Assembly: GCF_000172155.1 (NCBI RefSeq)
Contig: NZ_ABIZ01000001.1
Location: 248,001 to 312,000, forward strand
From: Verrucomicrobium spinosum DSM 4136 = JCM 18804
GTDB lineage: Bacteria > Verrucomicrobiota > Verrucomicrobiia > Verrucomicrobiales > Verrucomicrobiaceae
DNA: 64,000 nucleotides
Reading direction: 5' to 3'
A model generated the notes under the pieces. That model did no database searches and was not told where the DNA came from. It saw only the letters and a list, made by a program, of their open reading frames with translations. Of this stretch, positions 30,981 to 55,945 are shown one piece after another; positions within the stretch are counted from its first letter, which is position 1; every line of letters starts with the position of its first letter. A program made the position numbers and the translations under genes.

Positions 30981-30991
30981 CAGAAGGGCCA

Positions 30992-31753
30992 TCACAAGAA
31001 CATCCCGCCAGAGGCTTCCACGCGTTGTGCATTGACCCAGCGTCCTTCCTCAGAGCAGAGGAAGGAGATGACGCCGCCGATGTCATCGGGCACACCGACG
31101 CGGCCGAGGGCGGTCTGGGAGGCGAGGAAATCACGCAGGCCGGGATGGCTGAGGGCGTCTTTGGTGAAGTCAGTCTCGATCGCTCCGGGTGCCACAGCGT
31201 TGGCGTTGATTCGGCGCGGCCCCAGCTCCTTGGCCAGGTAGCGGGTGAAGACCTCGATCGCCCCTTTCATGGAGGCATAGGCGGCATAGCCGGGGATGGA
31301 GAAGCGGGCGAGACCCGTGGAGGTGTTGACGATGCGGCCGCCATCAGCAATGAGCGGGAGCAGTTTCTGGGTGAGGAAGAACACACCCTTGAAGTGCACA
31401 TTCATGAGATCGTCAAAGTCGGTCTCCGTCGTCTCCGCGAAGGGCGAGGCGCGATCAATGCCGGCGTTGTTGATGAGGAAGTCGAAGTCCTTCCGCTGCC
31501 AGACTTCATGGAGCACTCCCTCCAGGGACTGGCTGAAGGTTTCGAAGCCCGCGGTCATTGCCACGTCGATTTGCAGGAGGGCTGCCTTCCGGCCGAGCGT
31601 CTCGATCTCAGCTTTCACGGCTTCGCCCTCCGTCTTGCCCTGGCGGTAGGTGAGGATGACGTCTGCACCGTCGGAGGCGAGCTTGAGGGCGGTGTTGCGG
31701 CCCAGGCCCCGGCTGCCGCCGGTGATGAGGGCGATCTTTTGGGTGTGTTTCAT
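30992..31753 (-). CDS. Short-chain dehydrogenase/reductase
   Basis: The frame opens at 31933, but the ATG at 31753 fits the family (253 residues). NAD(P)-binding is shown by TGGSRGLGR near the start and NNAG at mid-protein. The catalytic Ser-Tyr-Lys is visible as INTS..., then YAAYASMKGA. Cofactor preference and substrate are not readable. It is divergent from the AraC-type regulator that starts 152 bases away, a common regulator-target arrangement. Confidence 0.9.
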   Translation of the reverse strand: MKHTQKIALITGGSRGLGRNTALKLASDGADVILTYRQGKTEGEAVKAEIETLGRKAALLQIDVAMTAGFETFSQSLEGVLHEVWQRKDFDFLINNAGIDRASPFAETTETDFDDLMNVHFKGVFFLTQKLLPLIADGGRIVNTSTGLARFSIPGYAAYASMKGAIEVFTRYLAKELGPRRINANAVAPGAIETDFTKDALSHPGLRDFLASQTALGRVGVPDDIGGVISFLCSEEGRWVNAQRVEASGGMFL

Positions 31754-31905
31754 ACGCCCTATCAGTGCCCCCACCCGGCGTCTCGCTCCATACCTGGAAC
31801 TCCGGGAGATTTGCCTGATCCTCCAATGGGAGGGGTGGGCGGCGTATTTTGATTGGAGGCTGACCAGGCCTACTTCATCTTGTCGCCGTCGCTCTTCTGT
31901 TCCGT

Positions 31906-32814
31906 ATGATCGATCTTTCCGTTCCGTGTTCAAACCCGCGCCTCATCGCCCTCTTGTCCGAGCTGGCAGCGGGGCAGGGGTTTAGTGATTCTCGGCTGCC
32001 GGAGGTCAGGTTCATGCGCTCCACCCAGCATGTGCCGAACAGCCCCATCGTCTATGATCCCAGCATCGTGATCATCGCCCAGGGGCGCAAGACCGGCACC
32101 TTTGACGGGCGGAAGATCATCTACGACCCCAGCCACTATCTGGTGCTGGCGGTGCCTCTGCCTTTTGAGTGTGAGACGGAAGGCAGTCTGGGCGAGCCAT
32201 TGCTGGGCGTGTCTATCGCGGTGAAGCCCGCGACGGTGGCCGAGTTGCTCCTGCAAATGACCTTCATCCGGGACGAGGATGTGGCCCCCCATGCCATTGA
32301 TTCCGCCGGTCTTGATGAAGCACTTAGCGAGGCCACGGTACGCCTCCTGGAGAGCTTGCGAACTGAGGAGGATGCCCGGATCCTGGGGCCGCAGCGGGTG
32401 CGGGAGGTGGTTTACCGGGTGCTGCAGGGGCCGCTGGGGCACTGTTTGCGTTTGCTCGCGGCCCCGGACAGCCACTTTGGCCAGATCAGCCGCGTGCTGA
32501 ACCGCCTGCACCTTGACTACACCCAGAATCATGATGTGACGTTCCTGGCTCAGGAGGCGGGCATGAGTGTCTCCACCTTTCATGCCCACTTCAAGGCGGT
32601 GACCTCGTCCTCCCCGTTGCAGTACTTGAAGAACATCCGTCTGCACAAGGCCCGGCAGCTCATGGTGCATGAAGGGGCCAACGCAGGGGTGGCCGCCCTG
32701 CAGGTGGGCTATGAGAGTGCTTCCCAGTTCAGCCGGGAATTCAAGCGTCTGTTTGGCGAAGGCCCCGCCGCTGAAGCGGAACGGCTGAGGAAAGCCCTGG
32801 TCCGCCTGGCCTAG
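31906..32814 (+). CDS. AraC-family transcriptional regulator
   Basis: 302 residues. The N-terminal half matches the AraC_N ligand-binding domain (YDPSIVIIAQGRKTGTFDGR). The C-terminal ~100 residues hold two helix-turn-helices (VTFLAQEAGMSVSTFHAHFK; VAALQVGYESASQFSREFKRLFGEGP). Placed head-to-head with the SDR gene, it probably controls that gene and itself from the shared 152-bp gap. The inducer is unknown. Confidence 0.92.
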   Translation: MIDLSVPCSNPRLIALLSELAAGQGFSDSRLPEVRFMRSTQHVPNSPIVYDPSIVIIAQGRKTGTFDGRKIIYDPSHYLVLAVPLPFECETEGSLGEPLLGVSIAVKPATVAELLLQMTFIRDEDVAPHAIDSAGLDEALSEATVRLLESLRTEEDARILGPQRVREVVYRVLQGPLGHCLRLLAAPDSHFGQISRVLNRLHLDYTQNHDVTFLAQEAGMSVSTFHAHFKAVTSSSPLQYLKNIRLHKARQLMVHEGANAGVAALQVGYESASQFSREFKRLFGEGPAAEAERLRKALVRLA

Positions 32815-33063
32815 TGAAGGGGGCCCTCTCCCGCCAAATGCCTCCCGGCCAGGAGGTTGCACCTGGCGTTGTCAGGGATCTGCTTGTGTGCAGGCATTAT
32901 TTTTGCCATATTTCCGGCTTATGTGGCAGGCGGCGCGTGGTTTCTCGCGGAGATAATCTTTGGGTACCAGGTCTGCTGGCTGGGGCGATGGCCCGGTCCG
33001 GTCCGCATCGTGTGGTGCTGCCCCAGTGTTTTTCGTTCTCTTATCGTCCTGTTTCCTTCATCT

Positions 33064-34779
33064 ATGAACTGGTTCACCAATCTCAAGACGCGTGCCAAAC
33101 TCCTGCTCGCCTTTGGTTTCATCTTGTTGCTGCTGGTGCTGGTGGTGGGGGTGGCCTTTCAGGCGCTGAAGGCCGTGCGGCTCGACTACAATGTGGCGGC
33201 GGATGTGGCGCGGCTGGAAAGCAACATCAACGCCCAGCGGGGTGCCCTGTTGTCGATGATGCACGAGACGGACCGTGCGGTTCTGGACGCTGAGCTTGCC
33301 ACGCTGAAGACCCGGAAGGAGCTGAACTCCCAGATCATCACCGCACTGAAGGAGGTGGCCCGTGACAACCCCGGGCTTCTTTCGCGGATCAATGAATGGG
33401 TGACGCAACGCGATGACTACAACAAGCTCCGGGACGAGCAGATCATTCCCGCTCTCCTCTCCGGGAAGGTGGAGGAGGCGCGTGGGCTGGTGATGGGCAC
33501 CCAGTCAGACCGCTATGAACGCATGCGTACCCTGGGGGAGGAGGTCTCCAACCTGGCGCGTGCCGATGCCGACTCCCGGGTGCATGACGCCATGCTGACG
33601 GTGATCACGCTGGGCATTGTCGCCCTGCTGGTGGGACTGGTGCTGGTGGGGGTGTTGAACCGTCTCATCGCCATTCCGCTGGGCAACATCTCCCGGGCGG
33701 CGGAGCAGATCGCCCTGGGGGATTTGGACGTGGTCACGGCCATGCCGGGACGCACCGATGAGGTGGGCCTGCTGGGGGCCTCCTTTGACCGTATGACGAC
33801 ATCCCTTCAGGTGATGGCGCGCGGGGCAGAGCAGGTGGCATCAGGTGACCTCACGGTGGCCATCCAGCCGCAGTCTGCGAAGGATGTGGTGGGCAATGCC
33901 CTCGCCACCATGGTGCAACAGCTCTCCGCGCTCATCAGCCAGGTTCAGAAGTCTGGCATCCAGGTCACCACCTCTGGCACCGAGATCGCCGCCACCGCCC
34001 GCCAGCAGCAGGCCACGGCCAGTGAGATCTCCTCCACCACCACAGAGATCGGTGCCACCGCAAAGGAGATCTCCGCCACGGCCAAGGAACTGGTGAAGGC
34101 CATGAAGTCCGTCACGGAGACGGCCGAGGAAACAGCCACCCTGGCCACCAGTGGCCAGACCGGGCTCACTCGCATGGAGGCCACCATGATGCAGATCATG
34201 GAGGCCTCCGGCTCCATCAACGCCCGGCTCGCTGTGCTCAGTGAGAAGGCGGGGAACATCAACAAGGTGGTCACCACCATCACGAAGGTGGCGGACCAGA
34301 CCAACCTCCTCTCCCTGAACGCTGCCATCGAGGCGGAGAAGGCGGGCGAGTATGGTCGCGGCTTCGCCGTGGTGGCCACAGAGATCCGTCGTCTGGCAGA
34401 CCAGACCGCAGTGGCCACCTCTGACATCGAGCAGATGGTCAAGGAGATGCAGTCCGCTGTATCTGCTGGCGTCATGGGCATGGACCGCTTTTCTGAGGAA
34501 GTGCGCCGCGGCGCGGAAGTGGTGGATCAGGTGGGCACCCAGCTCACGGAGATCATCGAGAAGGTGCAGACGCTCACGCCCAGCTTCGAGACCGTGAATG
34601 AGGGCATGCAGTCCCAGTCCCTGGGCGCGCAGCAGATCAGCGAGGCGCTGGTGCAACTGGGTGAGGCGGCGCAGCAGACTGTGGAGTCCCTGACGCAGTC
34701 GAACCTGGCCATCCAGCAGCTTACGGATGTCACGGCTGCCCTCCAGAGCGGGGTGTCACGGTTCAAGGTGACAAGCTAG
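33064..34779 (+). CDS. wspA: Methyl-accepting chemotaxis-type receptor, WspA-like
   Basis: The frame is open from 32857; the ATG at 33064 gives a normal receptor start (MNWFTNLKTRAKLLLAFGF) and 571 residues. Two membrane segments (about 12-32 and 185-205) enclose a ~150-residue helical sensor of the four-helix type. A HAMP region (NRLIAIPLGNISRAAEQIALGD) follows, then a signalling domain with the hairpin tip TKVADQTNLLSLNAAIEAEKAGEYGRGF. First gene of a seven-gene Wsp-type operon. In Pseudomonas, WspA responds to surface contact; the stimulus here is unknown. Confidence 0.9.
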   Translation: MNWFTNLKTRAKLLLAFGFILLLLVLVVGVAFQALKAVRLDYNVAADVARLESNINAQRGALLSMMHETDRAVLDAELATLKTRKELNSQIITALKEVARDNPGLLSRINEWVTQRDDYNKLRDEQIIPALLSGKVEEARGLVMGTQSDRYERMRTLGEEVSNLARADADSRVHDAMLTVITLGIVALLVGLVLVGVLNRLIAIPLGNISRAAEQIALGDLDVVTAMPGRTDEVGLLGASFDRMTTSLQVMARGAEQVASGDLTVAIQPQSAKDVVGNALATMVQQLSALISQVQKSGIQVTTSGTEIAATARQQQATASEISSTTTEIGATAKEISATAKELVKAMKSVTETAEETATLATSGQTGLTRMEATMMQIMEASGSINARLAVLSEKAGNINKVVTTITKVADQTNLLSLNAAIEAEKAGEYGRGFAVVATEIRRLADQTAVATSDIEQMVKEMQSAVSAGVMGMDRFSEEVRRGAEVVDQVGTQLTEIIEKVQTLTPSFETVNEGMQSQSLGAQQISEALVQLGEAAQQTVESLTQSNLAIQQLTDVTAALQSGVSRFKVTS

Positions 34780-34800
34780 GCAATCGTGGGAGGTGTGGTC

Positions 34801-35262
34801 ATGTTGCTTCTCGTCTTCCAACTGGGTCAGCACCGCTTTGCGCTGGATACGCGCCAGGTGGCGGAGGTGCTGCCCCTGGTGCAGCACCGGCCCCTGCCGC
34901 AGGCTCCGGCCGGAGTGGCGGGTGTCTTTGCCTACCATGGCCGTCCTGTGCCGCTTATTGATCTGGCAGCCATCGCCCTGGGGGAACCCTCCCAGCAGCG
35001 CATGAGCACCCGCATCATCCTGGTGAATTATGAGGATCGAGGGGAGAGCCACCTGCTCGGCCTGCTGGCAGAGAAGACCACCGAGACCCTCCGTCGCACT
35101 GAGGCCGACTTTGCCACGACGGGCGTGACGCTCGACTCCGCCCCCTACCTCGGGCCCGTGACGCATGACGCCCGCGGCATGATCCAGCGGGTGGAGGTGT
35201 CCGCCCTGCTCTCTGAGGAGGTCCGTACCGTGCTGTTCCGGCAACCGCTTGAAATCCCCTGA
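34801..35262 (+). CDS. wspB: CheW-type coupling protein, WspB-like
   Basis: 153 residues. The ATG at 34801 is preferred over the upstream GTG at 34786 because GGGAGGT (34788-34794) lies at ribosome-binding distance in front of it. The single CheW domain (FQLGQHRFALDTRQVAEVLPL, VAGVFAYHGRPVPLIDLAAI) bridges receptor and kinase. Its stop shares one base with the next start. Confidence 0.88.
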   Translation: MLLLVFQLGQHRFALDTRQVAEVLPLVQHRPLPQAPAGVAGVFAYHGRPVPLIDLAAIALGEPSQQRMSTRIILVNYEDRGESHLLGLLAEKTTETLRRTEADFATTGVTLDSAPYLGPVTHDARGMIQRVEVSALLSEEVRTVLFRQPLEIP

Positions 35263-36557
35263 TGCCCCACAGCCACAATCATATCACGAATCTCCTGAAG
35301 GAATCGATCGGCGTGGATGCCGCCACGATGGGGAAGTCTGTCGTGACGAATGCCGTGCGCCAGCGCATGGCCGCCTGTGGGTTGCAGGAAACAGGGGCCT
35401 ACTGGAACTTGCTGCGCCGTTCGGATGAGGAGCTGGCCCAGCTGGTGGAGCTGGTGGTGGTGCCGGAGACCTGGTTCTTCCGTGATCCGGCGGCCTATGC
35501 CGCGCTTGTGCATCATGTACGGCAGGAGTGGGGGCCCGCCCATCCCACCGGGCGGCTGCGTGTGCTCAGTGCCCCATGCTCCACCGGAGAGGAGCCCTAC
35601 ACCATCGCCATGGCACTGCTGGATGCAGGCCTGCCAGCGATGCGGTTTCAGATCGATGCCATCGACATCAGTGAGCGTGCCCTCGCCCGGGCGCGCCGGG
35701 CTGTCTATGGCCGCAACGCCTTCCGCGGCAGTGACGTCGGTTTCCGCGAACGGTACTTTCGGGAGGAGCAGGGGCTGCACCGTCTCACGCCGCTGGTGCG
35801 GGAATGTGTGGATTTTCGTCAGGCCAACCTGGTGTCCGATGACCCGCTGCCGGGGGCCGGCAGCTATGATGCCATCTTCTGCCGGAACGTGCTCATCTAC
35901 TTCGATGCGCCGACCCAGGAGCGCGTGATCCGGGCGCTTGACCGGCTGCTCGCACCCGAGGGCCTTCTCTTTGTGGGTCCTGCGGAGACCTTTCTCACCC
36001 GCAGTGCCGGTTTCACCTCGGTGGATTTTCCCTCCGCGTTCGCCTGCCGCCGTGCGGCCAGGAAGAGCGGGGTCCAGCTTTCCGGGGCTGCTGCCAGCGT
36101 GTCGCCCGCCTTCCGTCCGTTCACGATGCCTCCCCCAGGCCGGGGTGAGCCCCGGAATCCCGTGCCTGCCAGGGCGGCAAAGCCTGCCGCCAGGAAGTTG
36201 GCTCCTGCACCCGCTCCCGTCCCGGCTGCCCCTGCGCCGTCAGGGCCGGCCACCGCTCTCGCGGCCATCACCCGGCTGGCGGATGGCGGCCATCTGGCGG
36301 AGGCCCTCACCGCATGTGAGGGGCATCTGCGTGATCACGGCCCCTCAGTGGAGGCGTACTACCTGCTGGCGCTCATCCGCGACATGCTAGGCAGCCATGC
36401 CGAGGCCGCCAAATGCTACCGCAAAGTGTTGTACCTGGATCCCAACCATTCCGAAGCCCTGCTGCACCTCGCGCTGCTGGCAGAGAACCAGGGCGATCTG
36501 GCAGAGGCCCGCCGCCTGCAGCAACGCGCCCGCCGCAGTGAGGAGGTGGCCCGATGA
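35262..36557 (+). CDS. wspC: CheR-type methyltransferase with TPR tail, WspC-like
   Basis: 431 residues. The N-terminal ~270 residues form the SAM-dependent receptor methyltransferase (VVVPETWFFRDPAAY, LRVLSAPCSTGEEPYTIAM, YDAIFCRNVLIYFD). A Pro/Ala-rich linker (about 290-330) leads to TPR helices (SHAEAAKCYRKVLYLDPNHSEALLHLALLAENQGD). The CheR+TPR fusion is diagnostic of WspC and related alternative-function systems. It would methylate glutamates of the receptor, opposed by the CheB-type protein downstream. Confidence 0.92.
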   Translation: MPHSHNHITNLLKESIGVDAATMGKSVVTNAVRQRMAACGLQETGAYWNLLRRSDEELAQLVELVVVPETWFFRDPAAYAALVHHVRQEWGPAHPTGRLRVLSAPCSTGEEPYTIAMALLDAGLPAMRFQIDAIDISERALARARRAVYGRNAFRGSDVGFRERYFREEQGLHRLTPLVRECVDFRQANLVSDDPLPGAGSYDAIFCRNVLIYFDAPTQERVIRALDRLLAPEGLLFVGPAETFLTRSAGFTSVDFPSAFACRRAARKSGVQLSGAAASVSPAFRPFTMPPPGRGEPRNPVPARAAKPAARKLAPAPAPVPAAPAPSGPATALAAITRLADGGHLAEALTACEGHLRDHGPSVEAYYLLALIRDMLGSHAEAAKCYRKVLYLDPNHSEALLHLALLAENQGDLAEARRLQQRARRSEEVAR

Positions 36558-37165
36558 CCCGGCCGCCCGCAGATGCGCCCGCACCGCCCCCGGCTGGCGG
36601 CGGCACCTCAGGTGCCCAGTTCCTGCTGGATCGTGCCCCGCCGGAGGACTACCTGCGCGAGTGGACGGAGCGGATCGCCAGTGAAAAACGGGCGGCCGAT
36701 ACCGGCACCACCTCCGCATTGATCTTCCGCATCGGCGTGGAGTGGCTGGCCCTGCCCACGCAGATCTTCCAGCAGGTGGCAGACCAGTGCCCGGTGCACA
36801 GCCTGCCGCACCGGATGGACGGCATCGTCCGCGGGGTGGTGAACATCCGCGGGGAGCTCCTGGTGTGTGTGTCCCTGGGCTCGGTACTAGGTATTGACAA
36901 AGAGCCTGCCACCGTGAGTGAGGGGGGGCGCCGGGTCTATCCCCGGCTCCTGGTGGCCAACCGCGGCGGCAACCGCCTGGCGTTTCCCGTGGATGAGGTG
37001 CTGGGGGTGCACCGCTACCATCCCGGCGTCCTGCGCCCCGTGCCGACGACCCTGGCGGAGAGCCGTGTTTCCTATACCCAGGGACTGCTCCCCTGGCGGG
37101 ACCGCACCGTGGGCTGCCTGGATGACGAGCTGCTCTTCTACACCCTCAACCGGAGCCTTTCATGA
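36554..37165 (+). CDS. wspD: CheW-type coupling protein, WspD-like
   Basis: 203 residues with an ATGA overlap at both ends, so tightly coupled. An N-terminal extension with QFLLDRAPPEDYLREWTERI precedes the CheW domain (LIFRIGVEWLALPTQIFQQV, GIVRGVVNIRGELLVCVSL). Two different CheW proteins are usual in Wsp systems. Confidence 0.9.
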   Translation: MTRPPADAPAPPPAGGGTSGAQFLLDRAPPEDYLREWTERIASEKRAADTGTTSALIFRIGVEWLALPTQIFQQVADQCPVHSLPHRMDGIVRGVVNIRGELLVCVSLGSVLGIDKEPATVSEGGRRVYPRLLVANRGGNRLAFPVDEVLGVHRYHPGVLRPVPTTLAESRVSYTQGLLPWRDRTVGCLDDELLFYTLNRSLS

Positions 37166-39474
37166 GCGCAACAGATGGCGGTGACCTGGGCGACTTCTCC
37201 CTGGCGGATCTCTTCCGCATGGAGGTGGAGACGCAGACGGCCGTGATGACGGAGCACCTCCTGGCGCTTGAGCGCGAGCCGGAGGTTGCCCGCCACTATG
37301 AGGAGCTCATGCGCAGCGCGCACTCTCTGAAGGGCGCAGCTGGCATTGTGGACAACAAGGCTGCGGCACGCATTGCCCACAGCATGGAGGACTGCTTCGT
37401 CGCGGCGCAGCACGGCCACATCACCCTGCCGCAGGAGCGCATTGATCTGCTCCTGGACGGCGTGGACCTGCTCTCCCGCCTGTCAAAGGTGGCGGAGGAC
37501 GATCTGGAGCGGTGGCTGGTCACCCATCATCGGGAGATTGCGACCTTCTTGGACTCCCTCGCCTCCTCCCTCAAGGTGCCGCCGGGCTCTGCGGACCCTG
37601 CGCCGCAAGCCCCGGCAGCCGGTGAAGTTGTTTCATCGCCTCCCGCTGAGCCGGTCGAAATTGCGGACGACCGGAGTGCAGTTCAAGGAAACACCGCCAC
37701 CGGCGCCGGGCGCGGGGCGGATGCCGCCGTGCGGTCCCTGCGGGTGACGGCGGAGAACCTCAACCGCCTGCTTGCATTCGCCGGGGAATCGGTGGTGGCC
37801 TCCCGCTGGGTGAACACGTTCGCGAGCGACCTGCTGCGGATGAAACAGCTGCAGAACACGATCAGCCAGACCGTCGCCAACCTGCGTCAGGCGCTGGCCG
37901 GTGCCGGCTTGGATGAGCGCGTGCAGGCCCAGTGCATGGAGCTGCAGCGCCGCACCGGGGACTGCCTGGATCTGCTGACCGGGCAGCTCACGGACCTGGA
38001 CCTGTTTGACCGCCGCTTCTACAACCTCTCCAAGCGCCTCTACCAGGAGGTGCTGGACTGCCGCATGCGCCCTTTCTCAGATGGTTTGCAGGGTTTCCCC
38101 CGGCTGGTGCGGGATGCCGCCCGCTCGCTGGGCAAGGAGGTGCGGCTGGACATCGTGGGCGGCTCCACCCCGGTGGACCGTGAGGTGCTGGAGCGCGTGG
38201 AGGCCCCGTTGGGCCATCTGCTGCGCAATGCGGTGGATCACGCCATTGAGTTGCCGGCGGACCGGTTGCAGGCCGGGAAACCCGCCTTGGGTACCATCCG
38301 TCTGGAGGCGCGCCACAGCGCCGGCATGCTCATGATTGAGGTCACGGATGACGGTCGCGGCATTGATCTGGAGATGATCCGCTCCGCCGTGGTGCGGAAG
38401 AATCTCACCACCGCCGCACTCGCCGCTGAGCTGTCTGCCGCGGAGCTGCTGGAGTTTCTCTTCCTGCCCGGCTTCAGCATGAAGGACACCGTCACCCATC
38501 TCTCCGGCCGCGGGGTCGGGCTGGATGTGGTGCAGGCCATGGCCAAGGAGGTGGGCGGGGGAGCCCGGATTTCATCGAACCTCGGCAGCGGCACGCAGTT
38601 CCAGCTCCAGCTGCCGCTCACGCTTTCCGTGCTGCGCACGCTGATCGTGGAGGTGGGCGGGGAGACGTATGCCTTCCCGCTGGCCCGCATCGCCGGGGCC
38701 TTGAAGGTGCCGCGGGATCAGATCGAGTCGGTGGAGGGGCGGGAGCACTTCCGCTTTGGCGATCAGCAGGTAGGGCTGGTCACAGCGCACCAGGTGCTGG
38801 GCGTGCCGGACGCGCCTGCCGCCGAAGCAGAGGTGCCTGTGCTGGTGCTGGGGGACAAGAACAGCCGCTACGGCGTGGTCATTGATCGCTTTCTGAACGA
38901 GCGGGAACTCGTGGTGCTGCCGCTGGACCCGCGTCTGGGCAAGATCAAGGACATCAGCGCCGCCGCCCTCATGCCGGACCAGTCGCCCGTGCTCATTGTG
39001 GATGTGGATGACATGGTCCGTTCCATAGAGCTTCTCGTCTCCGGCGGGCGGCTCGCTCATGTGTCCCGTGGCGATGCCACGCAGGGCCGGAAGTCCCGCA
39101 AGCGGGTGCTCGTGGTGGATGACTCCCTCACCGTGCGGGAGCTGGTGCGCAAGCTCATCAGCAGCAAGGGGTATGTCGTGGAAGTTGCCGTGGACGGCAT
39201 GGACGGCTGGAACGCTGTACGCACGGGGAACTACGATCTGGTGGTAACAGATGTGGACATGCCCCGCATGGATGGCATTGAACTGGTGAACCTCATCAAG
39301 AAAGACACCCGCCTGCACTCCCTGCCTGTCATGATTGTTTCCTATAAAGATCGAGAGGAGGACCGACAGCGCGGCCTGGAGGCCGGGGCGGACTACTACC
39401 TCACGAAGGGCAGCTTCCACGATGAGACGCTGCTCCGCGCCCTGCAAGACTTGATCGGGGAGGCCGGCGCGTGA
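37162..39474 (+). CDS. wspE: Hybrid CheA-type histidine kinase, WspE-like
   Basis: 770 residues. Domains in order: Hpt with phospho-acceptor H54 in RSAHSLKGAAGI; a variable linker; dimerisation helices; an ATPase domain (HLLRNAVDHAIE, VTDDGRGID, LSGRGVGLDVVQ); CheW-like regulatory domain; and a C-terminal receiver with D697 in VTDVDMPRMDG and K in YYLTKGS. It would autophosphorylate under receptor control and pass phosphate to the CheB-type and WspR-like receivers. Length and order match WspE. Confidence 0.94.
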   Translation: MSATDGGDLGDFSLADLFRMEVETQTAVMTEHLLALEREPEVARHYEELMRSAHSLKGAAGIVDNKAAARIAHSMEDCFVAAQHGHITLPQERIDLLLDGVDLLSRLSKVAEDDLERWLVTHHREIATFLDSLASSLKVPPGSADPAPQAPAAGEVVSSPPAEPVEIADDRSAVQGNTATGAGRGADAAVRSLRVTAENLNRLLAFAGESVVASRWVNTFASDLLRMKQLQNTISQTVANLRQALAGAGLDERVQAQCMELQRRTGDCLDLLTGQLTDLDLFDRRFYNLSKRLYQEVLDCRMRPFSDGLQGFPRLVRDAARSLGKEVRLDIVGGSTPVDREVLERVEAPLGHLLRNAVDHAIELPADRLQAGKPALGTIRLEARHSAGMLMIEVTDDGRGIDLEMIRSAVVRKNLTTAALAAELSAAELLEFLFLPGFSMKDTVTHLSGRGVGLDVVQAMAKEVGGGARISSNLGSGTQFQLQLPLTLSVLRTLIVEVGGETYAFPLARIAGALKVPRDQIESVEGREHFRFGDQQVGLVTAHQVLGVPDAPAAEAEVPVLVLGDKNSRYGVVIDRFLNERELVVLPLDPRLGKIKDISAAALMPDQSPVLIVDVDDMVRSIELLVSGGRLAHVSRGDATQGRKSRKRVLVVDDSLTVRELVRKLISSKGYVVEVAVDGMDGWNAVRTGNYDLVVTDVDMPRMDGIELVNLIKKDTRLHSLPVMIVSYKDREEDRQRGLEAGADYYLTKGSFHDETLLRALQDLIGEAGA

Positions 39475-40508
39475 GGATTGCCATCGTCAACGACATGGCC
39501 ATGGCGGTGGAGGCCGTCTCCCGCGTGCTCACCAAGTCTGGGGAGCACCAGGTGGCATGGATTGCCCGGGATGGAGCGGAGGGCGTGCGCCGCTGTGGGG
39601 AGGACCGTCCCGACCTCATCCTCATGGATATCTTCATGCCTGTGATGGATGGCGTGGAAGCCACCCGGCAGATTATGGTGCAGTCGCCATGTCCCATCCT
39701 CATCGTCACCGCCAGTGTAGAGAGCCACACGTCCAAGGTGTTCGAGGCGCTCGGGGCCGGGGCCCTGGATGTGGTGACCACCCCGGTGCTCGGGCCGGAT
39801 GGCCGGGGGGACGGTGGACCTGCCCTGCTGGCGAAGATCGGCGTGCTTAGTCGTCTCATTACCGGTCGTGCTCCCAAGGCCCATGCCGCCCCGCCCCCAG
39901 AGACGCCAGCGCTGGCTCTGGCGCAGAACCGGCTGGTGGTCATTGGAGCCTCTGCGGGTGGTCCCGCCGCCCTGGCGGAAGTGCTGGGAAACCTCCCCCA
40001 GGACTTTGCCGCCTCCCTCATCATTGTGCAGCATGTGGATGCCCAGTTCTCCGGCCTCATGGCCAAGTGGCTGCATGGGCAGGCCCGCATCCCTGTGCGT
40101 CTGGCGGAGGATGGCGACCGCCCGGAGCCCGGCGTGGCCCTCCTGGCAGGCACGAACGATCACCTGGTCTTCGACGGGCCCCGTCTGCTCTGCTACCATT
40201 CTGAGCCGCGCAACTGCTCCTACCGCCCCTCCGTGGACGTGTTCTTCGAAAGCGTGGTCCGCCACTGGAAAGGCGAGATCGCGGCCGTCCTGCTCACCGG
40301 CATGGGCCGGGACGGGGCCAAGGGGCTGAAAGCCCTGCGGGACCGCGGAGCATTCACCATTGCGCAGGATCAGGCCAGCTGCATTGTCTATGGCATGCCC
40401 AAGGCGGCAGTGGCGCTGAATGCCGCGGTGGAGGTTCTCCCTCTGAGCCAGATCGGCCCCCGCCTGACCCGCCATTTCCCGCACGTCAAAACTCCCTCCC
40501 CCGCCTGA
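39471..40508 (+). CDS. wspF: CheB-type protein-glutamate methylesterase, WspF-like
   Basis: 345 residues from a GTG overlapping the previous stop by four bases. The receiver is at the N-terminus (IVNDMAMAVEAV, phospho-acceptor in LILMDIFMPVMDG), then a linker and the methylesterase with Ser in IGASAGGP, His in IIVQHVDAQF and Asp in LTGMGRDGAKG. It removes methyl groups from the receptor to reset signalling. In Pseudomonas, loss of WspF locks the pathway on. Confidence 0.94.
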   Translation: MRIAIVNDMAMAVEAVSRVLTKSGEHQVAWIARDGAEGVRRCGEDRPDLILMDIFMPVMDGVEATRQIMVQSPCPILIVTASVESHTSKVFEALGAGALDVVTTPVLGPDGRGDGGPALLAKIGVLSRLITGRAPKAHAAPPPETPALALAQNRLVVIGASAGGPAALAEVLGNLPQDFAASLIIVQHVDAQFSGLMAKWLHGQARIPVRLAEDGDRPEPGVALLAGTNDHLVFDGPRLLCYHSEPRNCSYRPSVDVFFESVVRHWKGEIAAVLLTGMGRDGAKGLKALRDRGAFTIAQDQASCIVYGMPKAAVALNAAVEVLPLSQIGPRLTRHFPHVKTPSPA

Positions 40509-40933
40509 TGAGTACTGAAGCTTCCCCACCAGAGAACTCTGATACGCCCCCCCCCACCGGCACCATCACCGTGCTGTTGGTGGACGACCAGCGCATCATC
40601 GGGGAGGTGGTGCGTCGCATGTTTCTGGACCAGCCGGACATTCGCTTCCACTACTGCGCAGATGGCACCCAGGCCGTGGCCCGGGTTCAGGACATTAATC
40701 CTGATGTCATTCTCCAGGACCTCGTCCTGCCGGAGATCGATGGCGTCGAACTCGTCCGTCAGTACCGCGCCCAGGAGTGCTCCCGCACCACCCCGGTGAT
40801 CGTCCTCTCCGCCGCCGAAGACGCAGCCACCCGCACCCGGGCCACCGAAGCCGGGGCCAACGAATTCATGGTCAAGCCTCCGCCCAAGGCCGCTCTCATC
40901 GAGCGCATCCGTGCCCTGCTGGGGTCCGCGTGA
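40508..40933 (+). CDS. Single-domain receiver, WspR-like but without GGDEF
   Basis: 141 residues; start overlaps the wspF stop. Receiver features: acidic patch LVDDQRIIGEVVRR, phospho-acceptor D71 in VILQDLVLPEIDG and K123 in FMVKPPP. The sequence is closest in style to the WspR receiver (LLVDDQ, IGE-VRR, VILQDLV), and it stands where wspR stands. The protein ends at LLGSA right after the receiver, and the following ~100 bases code for no GGDEF remnant. It therefore cannot make c-di-GMP itself; output must go through another partner. Confidence 0.9.
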   Translation: MSTEASPPENSDTPPPTGTITVLLVDDQRIIGEVVRRMFLDQPDIRFHYCADGTQAVARVQDINPDVILQDLVLPEIDGVELVRQYRAQECSRTTPVIVLSAAEDAATRTRATEAGANEFMVKPPPKAALIERIRALLGSA

Positions 40934-41040
40934 GGGAGGAAGGTGGTAGTTTCGGGCAGCCGGAATTTATCTGACGAGAAGCCGCGTCTCTTCAGGCGTC
41001 ATCCGGCCCGTTCGTTGCGGCGAGCTGAAACCATTTCCCT

Positions 41041-52800: not shown

Positions 52801-52872
52801 AATTCGGTGGCAGCCCCCTCCTCGTTTGAGGGGTGGCGGTCTCGGATTCGAGGATGTAACATACCTGGTTTG

Positions 52873-53271
52873 ATGACAACTTCTACTTCGATGACACATA
52901 CAGTGCTTCTGGCCGATGACGATCCGCTGCTCCATCGTGTGGTGGGCTTCAAGGTGGCCCAGCAGCAGTGGCAGCTGATATCTGCCTACAATGGCGCAGA
53001 GGTGATCGAGCAGGCGCGGCTCATGCGACCGTCTGTGATCATTCTGGACGGCATGATGCCGGTCATGGATGGCTTTGAGGCACTGCAGGAATTGCGTCGT
53101 GACCCCATCACCGCGTCGATCCCGGTGCTCATGCTTTCCGCCCGCAACCGGGACGCCGATGTGGTGGGAGCCCTGGATCAGGGCGCGAATGATTACCTGA
53201 CGAAGCCGTTCAGTCCGGCGGAACTGGTGGCCCGGGTGAGCAGACTCATTCCGGGAGGTGCTGTTGCATGA
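52873..53271 (+). CDS. Single-domain response regulator
   Basis: The ATG at 52873 gives 132 residues: a receiver only, with LLADDDPLLHRVVGF, phospho-acceptor in VIILDGMMPVMDGF and Lys in DYLTKPFSPAEL. No output domain. It probably relays phosphate or acts by binding a partner such as the hybrid kinase encoded convergently, or the HEAT protein upstream. Confidence 0.92.
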   Translation: MTTSTSMTHTVLLADDDPLLHRVVGFKVAQQQWQLISAYNGAEVIEQARLMRPSVIILDGMMPVMDGFEALQELRRDPITASIPVLMLSARNRDADVVGALDQGANDYLTKPFSPAELVARVSRLIPGGAVA

Positions 53272-53287
53272 GGGGGGCTGCGCCCCC
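53272..53287. terminator. G-rich hairpin between convergent signalling genes
   Basis: GGGGGC-TGC-GCCCCC directly after the receiver stop, followed by a T-rich but interrupted stretch. Weak terminator candidate. Confidence 0.4.
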
Positions 53288-53323
53288 GCACCGGTGAATA
53301 AGTTGTTTCCTTGAGTCCGCGCC

Positions 53324-55945
53324 TCATGAGGCCTGGGCCGCAGAGGGGTAGCCGAGTTCGTGCAACCGGTTTTCGAGCCGGGCGACGGCTTCGTGGAGCT
53401 CCGCAAGAATATCAGCCCGGTCGGCTTTCTGAATGGTATCGAACTCCGCACGCTGAAAGAGGGCGGACAATTCGGTGAATCCCATGGTAGCTCCGGAGCC
53501 CCGGCCCAGGTGGGCAGCCTGCTGCCAGGAAGTATTGGCATCCTCACGGAGGGCAGCATCCAGCTGGTCAAGCACCTCCGTCATCTGCTCTGCGGCCATG
53601 CGCACAAGCTCGCGGTCAAGACTGCGGTCCCCCGTCAGGCAGTGCTTGAGCTGGGTCTCATCCACCACCGGAGGCTGGGAGTGGGGGAGGGTGTTGTTTC
53701 CTGCGCCAGCTTCCGGTGCAGCGGTCGTCGGCGTGCCCGGGGCGAGCCAGGCCAACAGGGCCTGCTGCAAGCGGTCCACCTCCACCGGCTTGGGCAGGTA
53801 GCCGTCCATGCCTGCCTCAAGACAGAGTTCTGCATCCCCCGCCATGACGTGGGCCGTGACGGCGATGATGGGCACGCGTTTCGCTCCTGTGAGGCTCTCC
53901 CACTCGCGGATCTTTCGGGTGGCCTCGAACCCGTCCATGACCGGCATCTGGCAGTCCAGCAGGATCACTTCGTGGCCCCCTTCCCTGGCAAGCTTCAGGG
54001 CCTCAGCACCGTCGGAACATGGGGTGACTTGCATCCCCAGGTATTCGAGCTGATTTTTCAGCACACGCTGGTTCACCGGGTTGTCATCCGCCACCAGGAT
54101 CCGGGCAGAAGAGAGCTCCAGGCGATCTGCCAGCTTTGCGGCGGGGGGCACAGGAGTGCCGGAAAGGAAACCGTAGAGTTCTGAAGGACGGAAGGGGTAC
54201 GTCAACAACCCGGCAACGCCGATCTTCTCCACGAATTCATCATCTAGGCCCTCACCATCCGACATGAGGTAAACGGGGCACCGGGTCCACCCTGATTTCT
54301 GCCGGAGTACTCGCACCGTCTCCTGCCAGCTCTCCCCCTGGGGACTGCCCACTACTACTGCACATAGTGGAAGCGGCTGGCCGTCTGAATCGACCCCAAA
54401 GGAATCCGGGAGGTCTTTGGTGCTGGTGGCGATGACGGGATGCAAGCCCCAACTGCTCGCATGGGTGCGGACGGACTCTGCCGTCAGCGCCCTGTTTTCC
54501 ACTATCAGTAGGGCCCCTGGCACCAGTTTCTGTGCGGCGGCTGGTTCAGCCACTGCTTCGAACACCACAGTGAACCAGAACTTGGCCCCTTGCCCGGGAG
54601 TGCTCTCCACATTCAGGGTGCCGTTCATTCGTTGCACGAGCTCTTGGGAAACGGCCAGCCCCAGGCCGGTGCCGCCCTGACGCCAGCCCCCTTTGCTACT
54701 GGCCTGGGCGAACGGCACAAAGAGACGTTGTTGGGCTTCGGGCGTGATGCCGGGTCCGGTGTCGCGTACATCGATGCGGAGGCAGATGCGGTTCTCTGAC
54801 TCCATCTGACGCCGGCGCATCACGTGAATTGAGACACTGCCGGCATTCGTGAACTTTACAGCGTTAGAGACAAGGTTTTGCAGCACCTGCCGGAAGTGTT
54901 GCCGGTCTCCCATGACCTGCGCAGGCAGATCGGGCTCCAGATGGGAGGTCAGCTCCAGGCCTTTCTTTGTCGCACGATCTGCATAGTGCGTGAGCACATC
55001 CTCCACGATCGCTGAGGGCGAGAAACTCTCGGTGACGAAGCTCATCTCTCCCGCCTGGAGTTTGGAGAGGTCCAGGATGTCATTGATGATCGCCAGCAGC
55101 GTCTTTCCAGAAGTGCGGATGGTTTCCACGCCATCTCGTTGTCTGGCGGAGAGAGACGTGTCTCGAAGCAGCAGATCGGCTGCTCCCAGCACCCCGTTCA
55201 TCGGAGTGCGGATCTCGTGACCCACAGAGGCCAGAAAGACTGAAGTGGTCTTCACGGAATCGAGCGCCGCATCACGGGCTTCCGCCAGCCTCGCCTCGTA
55301 TCGCATGCGGTTGCGACACTCCCGGAACACGATGCCAGCCCCGGCCACCACCGCAAGGAGTCCTACCACGCAGGAGATGCCAGCTATGCGCTGGAACTGG
55401 CGACGCTCATCCAGAAACCGGTCCCGACGGGTATCCAGGAGCTGGAGCTCTGCTGTCTTGACCCCGGAGATCTGGTGGTCAAGTTCAAGGGACTTTCCCG
55501 CGCTCTTCTCCAATTGGACGGCCAGCGTGGTGCTGCCGATGGTGTCTGCATTGTTGACGTTCTCATCCAGAAGATTGAGGTGCTCTGCGAGCACTTGGCG
55601 GAGGGGTTCCATCTTCAAGGACTGGAGCGGATTGTCCTTCACCAGGCGGGCCAGTGTTTCCAGCGCCCGGGGGGCGTCATGGCGGTGCAAATGGTAGTCA
55701 CTGAAGCAAGCTTCGCTCTTGGTCAGCATGAAGGCGCGTTGCGTGCTCTCAGCTTCACGTGCCAGGTAACGTACTGCATCCACCTGGCTGAGCACTTCGT
55801 GGGTGTGCTCCACCAGCCTGTAGCTGGCCATCTCTTGTCTGGCTTGGTGCAAAAGTACCCCACCGAGCAGGAGAGGCACGGACACAACGATCAAAATGCC
55901 TGTCGCCAAGACAAGCCATATCCAGGCGCTGACGCGATAACTCAC
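53324..55945 (-). CDS. Hybrid sensor kinase: CHASE3-like, kinase, degenerate receiver, receiver, Hpt
   Basis: GTG start at 55945, 873 residues. Two membrane helices (about 8-32 and 185-207) enclose a CHASE3-like sensor. Then come HisKA with FLASVGHEIRTPMNG, the ATPase domain (NLVSNAVKFTN, VRDTGPGI, GGTGLGLAVS) and a receiver-like domain that lacks the phospho-acceptor (CAVVVGSPQ where ILLD-MP is expected). A normal receiver follows (ILVADDNPVNQRVL, EVILLDCQMPVMDGFE) and a C-terminal Hpt with AAHLGRGSGATMG. It is a complete His-Asp-His relay; final recipient unknown, the convergent single receiver being a candidate. Confidence 0.93.
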   Translation of the reverse strand: MSYRVSAWIWLVLATGILIVVSVPLLLGGVLLHQARQEMASYRLVEHTHEVLSQVDAVRYLAREAESTQRAFMLTKSEACFSDYHLHRHDAPRALETLARLVKDNPLQSLKMEPLRQVLAEHLNLLDENVNNADTIGSTTLAVQLEKSAGKSLELDHQISGVKTAELQLLDTRRDRFLDERRQFQRIAGISCVVGLLAVVAGAGIVFRECRNRMRYEARLAEARDAALDSVKTTSVFLASVGHEIRTPMNGVLGAADLLLRDTSLSARQRDGVETIRTSGKTLLAIINDILDLSKLQAGEMSFVTESFSPSAIVEDVLTHYADRATKKGLELTSHLEPDLPAQVMGDRQHFRQVLQNLVSNAVKFTNAGSVSIHVMRRRQMESENRICLRIDVRDTGPGITPEAQQRLFVPFAQASSKGGWRQGGTGLGLAVSQELVQRMNGTLNVESTPGQGAKFWFTVVFEAVAEPAAAQKLVPGALLIVENRALTAESVRTHASSWGLHPVIATSTKDLPDSFGVDSDGQPLPLCAVVVGSPQGESWQETVRVLRQKSGWTRCPVYLMSDGEGLDDEFVEKIGVAGLLTYPFRPSELYGFLSGTPVPPAAKLADRLELSSARILVADDNPVNQRVLKNQLEYLGMQVTPCSDGAEALKLAREGGHEVILLDCQMPVMDGFEATRKIREWESLTGAKRVPIIAVTAHVMAGDAELCLEAGMDGYLPKPVEVDRLQQALLAWLAPGTPTTAAPEAGAGNNTLPHSQPPVVDETQLKHCLTGDRSLDRELVRMAAEQMTEVLDQLDAALREDANTSWQQAAHLGRGSGATMGFTELSALFQRAEFDTIQKADRADILAELHEAVARLENRLHELGYPSAAQAS

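Follow-up and report, generated by a model that had tools for sequence, protein, structure and literature searches.

A Wsp-type chemosensory operon of Verrucomicrobium spinosum ends in a receiver-only regulator, in a genome where no GGDEF, EAL or PilZ domain was found

The Wsp system is the textbook case of surface sensing through c-di-GMP, and a Wsp-type operon whose last gene encodes a receiver and nothing else raises the question of where its signal goes. Such an operon is found in Verrucomicrobium spinosum (genome of 8,220,857 bases in a single contig, 100% complete), where seven genes in Wsp order occupy positions 33064-40933 of the window, that is, of the whole 64,000-nucleotide stretch of DNA that was analysed, which spans genome positions 248001-312000. 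All of them lie on the + strand and were assigned by Pfam search: a wspA-like chemoreceptor (33064..34779, 571 aa; MCPsignal and HAMP above cut-off, with 4HB_MCP_1 as a sub-threshold match), a wspB-like CheW (34786..35262, 158 aa; CheW), a wspC-like CheR-TPR methyltransferase (35262..36557, 431 aa; CheR and TPR), a wspD-like second CheW (36554..37165, 203 aa; CheW), a wspE-like hybrid CheA-REC kinase (37162..39474, 770 aa; Hpt, HATPase_c, CheW and Response_reg), a wspF-like CheB methylesterase (39471..40508, 345 aa; Response_reg and CheB_methylest, with the NCBIfam CheB model also above cut-off) and a receiver-only wspR/wspH homologue, here called R (40508..40933, 141 aa, phospho-acceptor D71; Response_reg only). 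The order A-B-C-D-E-F-R, the CheR-TPR fusion, the two CheW proteins and the hybrid CheA, which the initial annotation had named, are borne out by these matches. Neighbouring genes abut closely or overlap, R sharing one nucleotide of its ATG (40508) with the stop codon of F; R is thus part of the operon and occupies the wspR position.

The syntenic order of MCP, CheW, CheR/TPR, CheW, hybrid CheA and CheB is common to most Wsp-like loci with complete flanks. WspE is 43-56% identical to the Wsp-like CheA proteins of the phylum outside the genus, and overall 43-57% identical to Wsp-type CheA, but no more than 36% identical to other CheA proteins, for the most part in partial alignments; it groups with the Wsp CheA proteins and not with those of other ACF systems. 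The locus is thus, judged by sequence, a Wsp-type (ACF-class) core of a putatively surface-sensing type. Other chemosensory loci are present in the genome. A second cluster of ACF type (L069, G000:C1:3732142-3741708) has a three-receiver hybrid kinase as its last gene, and a third, apparently broken (L070, G000:C1:6016154-6018320), has parts of SpoIIE and fragments of CheR and CheW lying in frames that overlap. Within the window, a single receiver (154 aa, + strand) adjoins a CHASE3-HisKA-HATPase-REC-Hpt hybrid kinase (873 aa, - strand) at 52807-55945.

R consists of a single Response_reg domain (residues 22-135 of 141) that retains the phosphorylation residues D26, D27, D71, S101 and K123, and its ORF ends immediately past helix alpha5. 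Among PDB sequences it matches two WspR-type REC-GGDEF entries best, 3i5a and 3bre (110-112 bits, with the next match at 60 bits), and the receiver is clearly of WspR type by this comparison. The AlphaFold model has a REC fold (mean pLDDT 89.9), with alpha4 at residues 106-115, beta5 at 119-122 and alpha5 at 127-140. No output-domain remnant was found 3' of R by tblastn with kinase, phosphatase, cyclase and GGDEF tails, so that the initial description of a WspR-type receiver with D71, after which the gene stops with nothing recognisable downstream, proved accurate. The same description had named a frameshift hiding a GGDEF domain as the finding that would overturn it. In two congeners, however, L039 (from genome G218) and Verrucomicrobium sp. 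BvORR106 (L079), R has 142 aa and the same stop position, and a frameshift or assembly artefact was rejected because the end point is the same in three Verrucomicrobium genomes. The operon lies in a block collinear with L079 over 32827..40935 (87% identity by blastn), the ends of which are the stop codon of R and a point just upstream of wspA, and in one collinear with L039 from 30991 to 40996 (blastn). Over the three congener pairs, the dN/dS of R is 0.09-0.12 (NG86), within the range of the other six operon genes (0.05-0.22, NG86). The receiver-only R is real and under purifying selection, and from its sequence it is most likely functional.

The search for the usual messenger gave a uniform result: GGDEF, EAL and PilZ had 0 matches each in the complete, single-contig genome, and the same searches gave matches in the expected control genomes. 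GGDEF is present in 140 of the 388 genomes of the phylum sample and in neither of the two from the genus Verrucomicrobium, the other being the congener G218, also with 0. Given an R without output domain and no c-di-GMP enzyme found, the signal would leave the array by a route other than c-di-GMP. Any HD-GYP phosphodiesterase would make no difference to c-di-GMP synthesis where GGDEF is lacking. The initial annotation was therefore right that the c-di-GMP output is missing at the seventh gene; it had further suggested rerouting to a free-standing diguanylate cyclase or another partner, and looking for a GGDEF protein elsewhere in the genome. That search returned nothing, and "another partner" remains the best reading of the two. 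A cyclase in trans has a precedent of sorts in Burkholderia, where WspH was at first suspected of working via another cyclase (PMC8552884), but in V. spinosum the absence of GGDEF, EAL and PilZ matches from a complete genome effectively excludes it; contradicted as it is, this explanation could stand only with an unrecognisable cyclase, and we regard it as next to impossible.

What a Wsp-type receiver can carry was surveyed with a CheA probe. At 43% identity or more, with a clear score gap from the next group, 29 of the 388 phylum genomes proved to have a close Wsp-like operon, V. spinosum and G218 included, and 80 named loci were recovered elsewhere. Many verrucomicrobial MAGs have SpoIIE/PP2C behind the R-type receiver, and other Verrucomicrobia as well as Acidobacteria gp5 have HisKA-HATPase(-REC) there; in Proteobacteria, Pseudomonas among them, the receiver precedes a GGDEF domain, and in cyanobacteria a class III nucleotide cyclase. 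The 97 aligned receivers comprise 51 of GGDEF type, 17 of kinase type, 13 of SpoIIE type, 13 others and 3 that are receiver-only, all three from Verrucomicrobium; in all other sampled operons with R in the wspR position, R bears an output or other extension. The survey of verrucomicrobial Wsp operons for a receiver-only WspR, also proposed at the outset, found this form in the three Verrucomicrobium genomes only. Several loci have features of their own. In the cyanobacterial L095 and L119, where R carries a class III adenylate/guanylate cyclase, CheW and CheR-TPR precede the MCP. The R of an Acidobacteria gp6 locus (L080:5037-5879) has a receiver and a coiled coil, followed by a short CxxC...CxxC tail that replaces the kinase and has no Pfam match, and in a Verrucomicrobiales MAG (L155:6147-6830) masked N bases within the output region leave the output only partly readable. 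Finally, the Verrucomicrobiota G128, G164, G229, G337, G343, G289 and G148 lack R beside the core and have it elsewhere in the genome.

Regarding the module that R has lost, the CheA tree places the Verrucomicrobium trio as sister to L108 (Acidobacteria gp5; SH-aLRT 99), whose R is a REC-HisKA-HATPase-REC protein running to the contig end. A concatenated tree of five genes (2018 columns) also joins Verrucomicrobium to L108 (SH-aLRT 100), with other kinase-type operons around them. Taken singly, F and C give trees in which the placement of Verrucomicrobium seen with WspE does not recur, so that the nature of the lost module is less secure than the support from the concatenation would imply; a receiver-only tree was left unused, as it has too few columns and sets Verrucomicrobium beside unrelated receivers through long branches. 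Since the sister operons carry a kinase on the same receiver, loss of a histidine kinase is the simplest reading. Going by these core trees, the ancestral R probably lost a histidine kinase and not a GGDEF domain, and the initial view of GGDEF as the missing part is probably wrong.

The receiver left behind has changed to an unusual extent. When the three Verrucomicrobium R proteins are set apart, the remaining 94 receivers have 52 positions with a conservation of at least 90%, and R is altered at 12 of these (median 1, next most deviant 9 among the 97); its divergence relative to its own CheA is likewise an outlier (z about -3.8). In the C-terminal third, after residue 103, 8 of 18 conserved positions have changed; up to that residue the figure is 4 of 34 (Fisher p=0.014, for a split at 103/104 that was picked by the analyst and agrees with the start of alpha4 at 106 in the model). 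According to the alignment and the AlphaFold model, the changes located at the usual output face or next to it are K109R, F113T/A, D119E, Y120F, L124P, E129A, A132E and H137L. Fixed catalytic residues, low dN/dS within the genus and a changed output face together suggest a receiver that talks to a separate partner. On balance we favour the reading that R is a CheY/DivK-like single-domain regulator of a Wsp-type array, which has lost its ancestral kinase module and would act in trans on a separate, putative partner. By analogy with other Wsp systems, WspE would phosphorylate D71 of R, and phospho-R may then contact its partner through the remodelled alpha4-beta5-alpha5 face. Loss of the fused output would have been followed by a burst of change in the receiver and then by renewed constraint, and part of the divergence could stem from relaxed constraint just after the loss. 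The likeliest class of target would be a separate kinase or phosphorelay, continuing the ancestral control by a kinase, or possibly type IV pilus ATPases; PilT-family ATPases are present in the genome, three of them above cut-off. The flagellar motor and c-di-GMP would not be favoured as targets, and FliM was not found in the genome. V. spinosum also has SpoIIE proteins, for which no link to R was found.

Instead of being lost, the kinase module might have split off, with a separate kinase gene as its direct descendant that still acts with R in trans. Such a fission would account for a receiver kept alone, and hybrid kinases of V. spinosum are up to 45% identical to the kinase module of L108. 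However, no tested Verrucomicrobium kinase falls inside the Wsp-R kinase group in the tree, a group taken without the divergent L063 type, and for this reason fission is unsupported; the tested kinases are moreover full sensor kinases with N-terminal regions of their own. Nor has R moved as a whole: a receiver probe that detects a relocated R (about 395-456 aa, 102-120 bits) in 7/7 relatives without R in the operon finds no relocated full-length R in V. spinosum, where the next receiver after R scores only 67 bits. Descent of a present-day kinase from R accordingly appears improbable.

Two further explanations do without a partner for R. If R were a decaying, truncated gene without function, the operon being kept by inertia or by another output, its standing as the most deviant of the 97 receivers would be expected, and the conserved block shared with L079, which stops at the stop codon of R, resembles a capture breakpoint. 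This is very improbable in view of the retention of all phosphorylation residues, the equal length in three species and a dN/dS of about 0.1. The other explanation sees R as a phosphate sink that drains WspE for termination or adaptation, with the true output lying in the REC fused to WspE or in a different regulator that WspE phosphorylates. Sinks of this kind are known among the single receivers of chemotaxis systems with two regulators, WspE retains its own REC, and R has no partner gene attached. Against this stand the sampled operons, where R in the wspR position elsewhere always bears an output or other extension, and the concentration of change on the interaction face with the catalytic residues unaltered, a pattern that points to a new binding partner; we therefore consider a sink unlikely. 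Regulation of a separate partner by a kinase-less R remains the preferred explanation.

A conserved Wsp core in a genome without detected GGDEF, EAL or PilZ separates the array from its usual messenger and offers a clean system in which to study the processes that the array governs. Our confidence is evenly divided on the wider proposal, namely that this is a Wsp array in an organism without any c-di-GMP system, that its multidomain regulator shed a kinase and was remodelled to serve a new target as a CheY-like messenger, and that the Wsp core works generally as an input module, to which GGDEF, a histidine kinase, a PP2C phosphatase, a class III cyclase or no output at all is joined, contrary to a simple dichotomy of WspR and WspH. 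Beta- and gammaproteobacterial Wsp systems are said to use one or the other in all cases (PMC8552884), a statement that the present survey widens to fused outputs of at least four kinds, plus a form that has none. Parts of this picture are already known, among them single-domain regulators in ACF/CheR-TPR clusters (PMC3447774) and the c-di-GMP-independent output of WspH (PMC8552884). A literature search of partial coverage found no paper on a Wsp operon in Verrucomicrobium.

Compared with the Pseudomonas Wsp system (WspA-F and WspR), the V. spinosum operon shares the order of the genes, the CheR-TPR fusion, both types of CheW, the hybrid CheA and a WspR-type receiver, and differs in that R has no GGDEF and that no GGDEF, EAL or PilZ was found in the genome. 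In Burkholderia, WspH is a REC-kinase and the Wsp output is independent of c-di-GMP (PMC8552884); the Wsp core and a terminal regulator without GGDEF are shared with V. spinosum, whereas wspH lies 5' of the operon and is fused to a kinase, and R lies 3' and is receiver-only. The histidine kinase of WspH is matched in the sister operons of Verrucomicrobium, not in the Verrucomicrobium R. CheR-TPR clusters carry regulators with many outputs (PMC3447774), including 20 REC-only regulators, nearly all from species without flagella. V. spinosum fits this ACF class with a single-domain regulator, as it combines a CheR-TPR cluster, a REC-only regulator and a non-flagellated cell; the passages of that article considered here give no account of a single domain arising when a multidomain ancestor of WspR/H type lost its output. 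A precedent comes from Comamonas, where the single-domain regulator FlmD of a biofilm chemosensory pathway acts through protein contact (SoxR), without c-di-GMP (PMC8880074); FlmD is described there as a homologue of PilH, whereas the R of V. spinosum is of WspR type.
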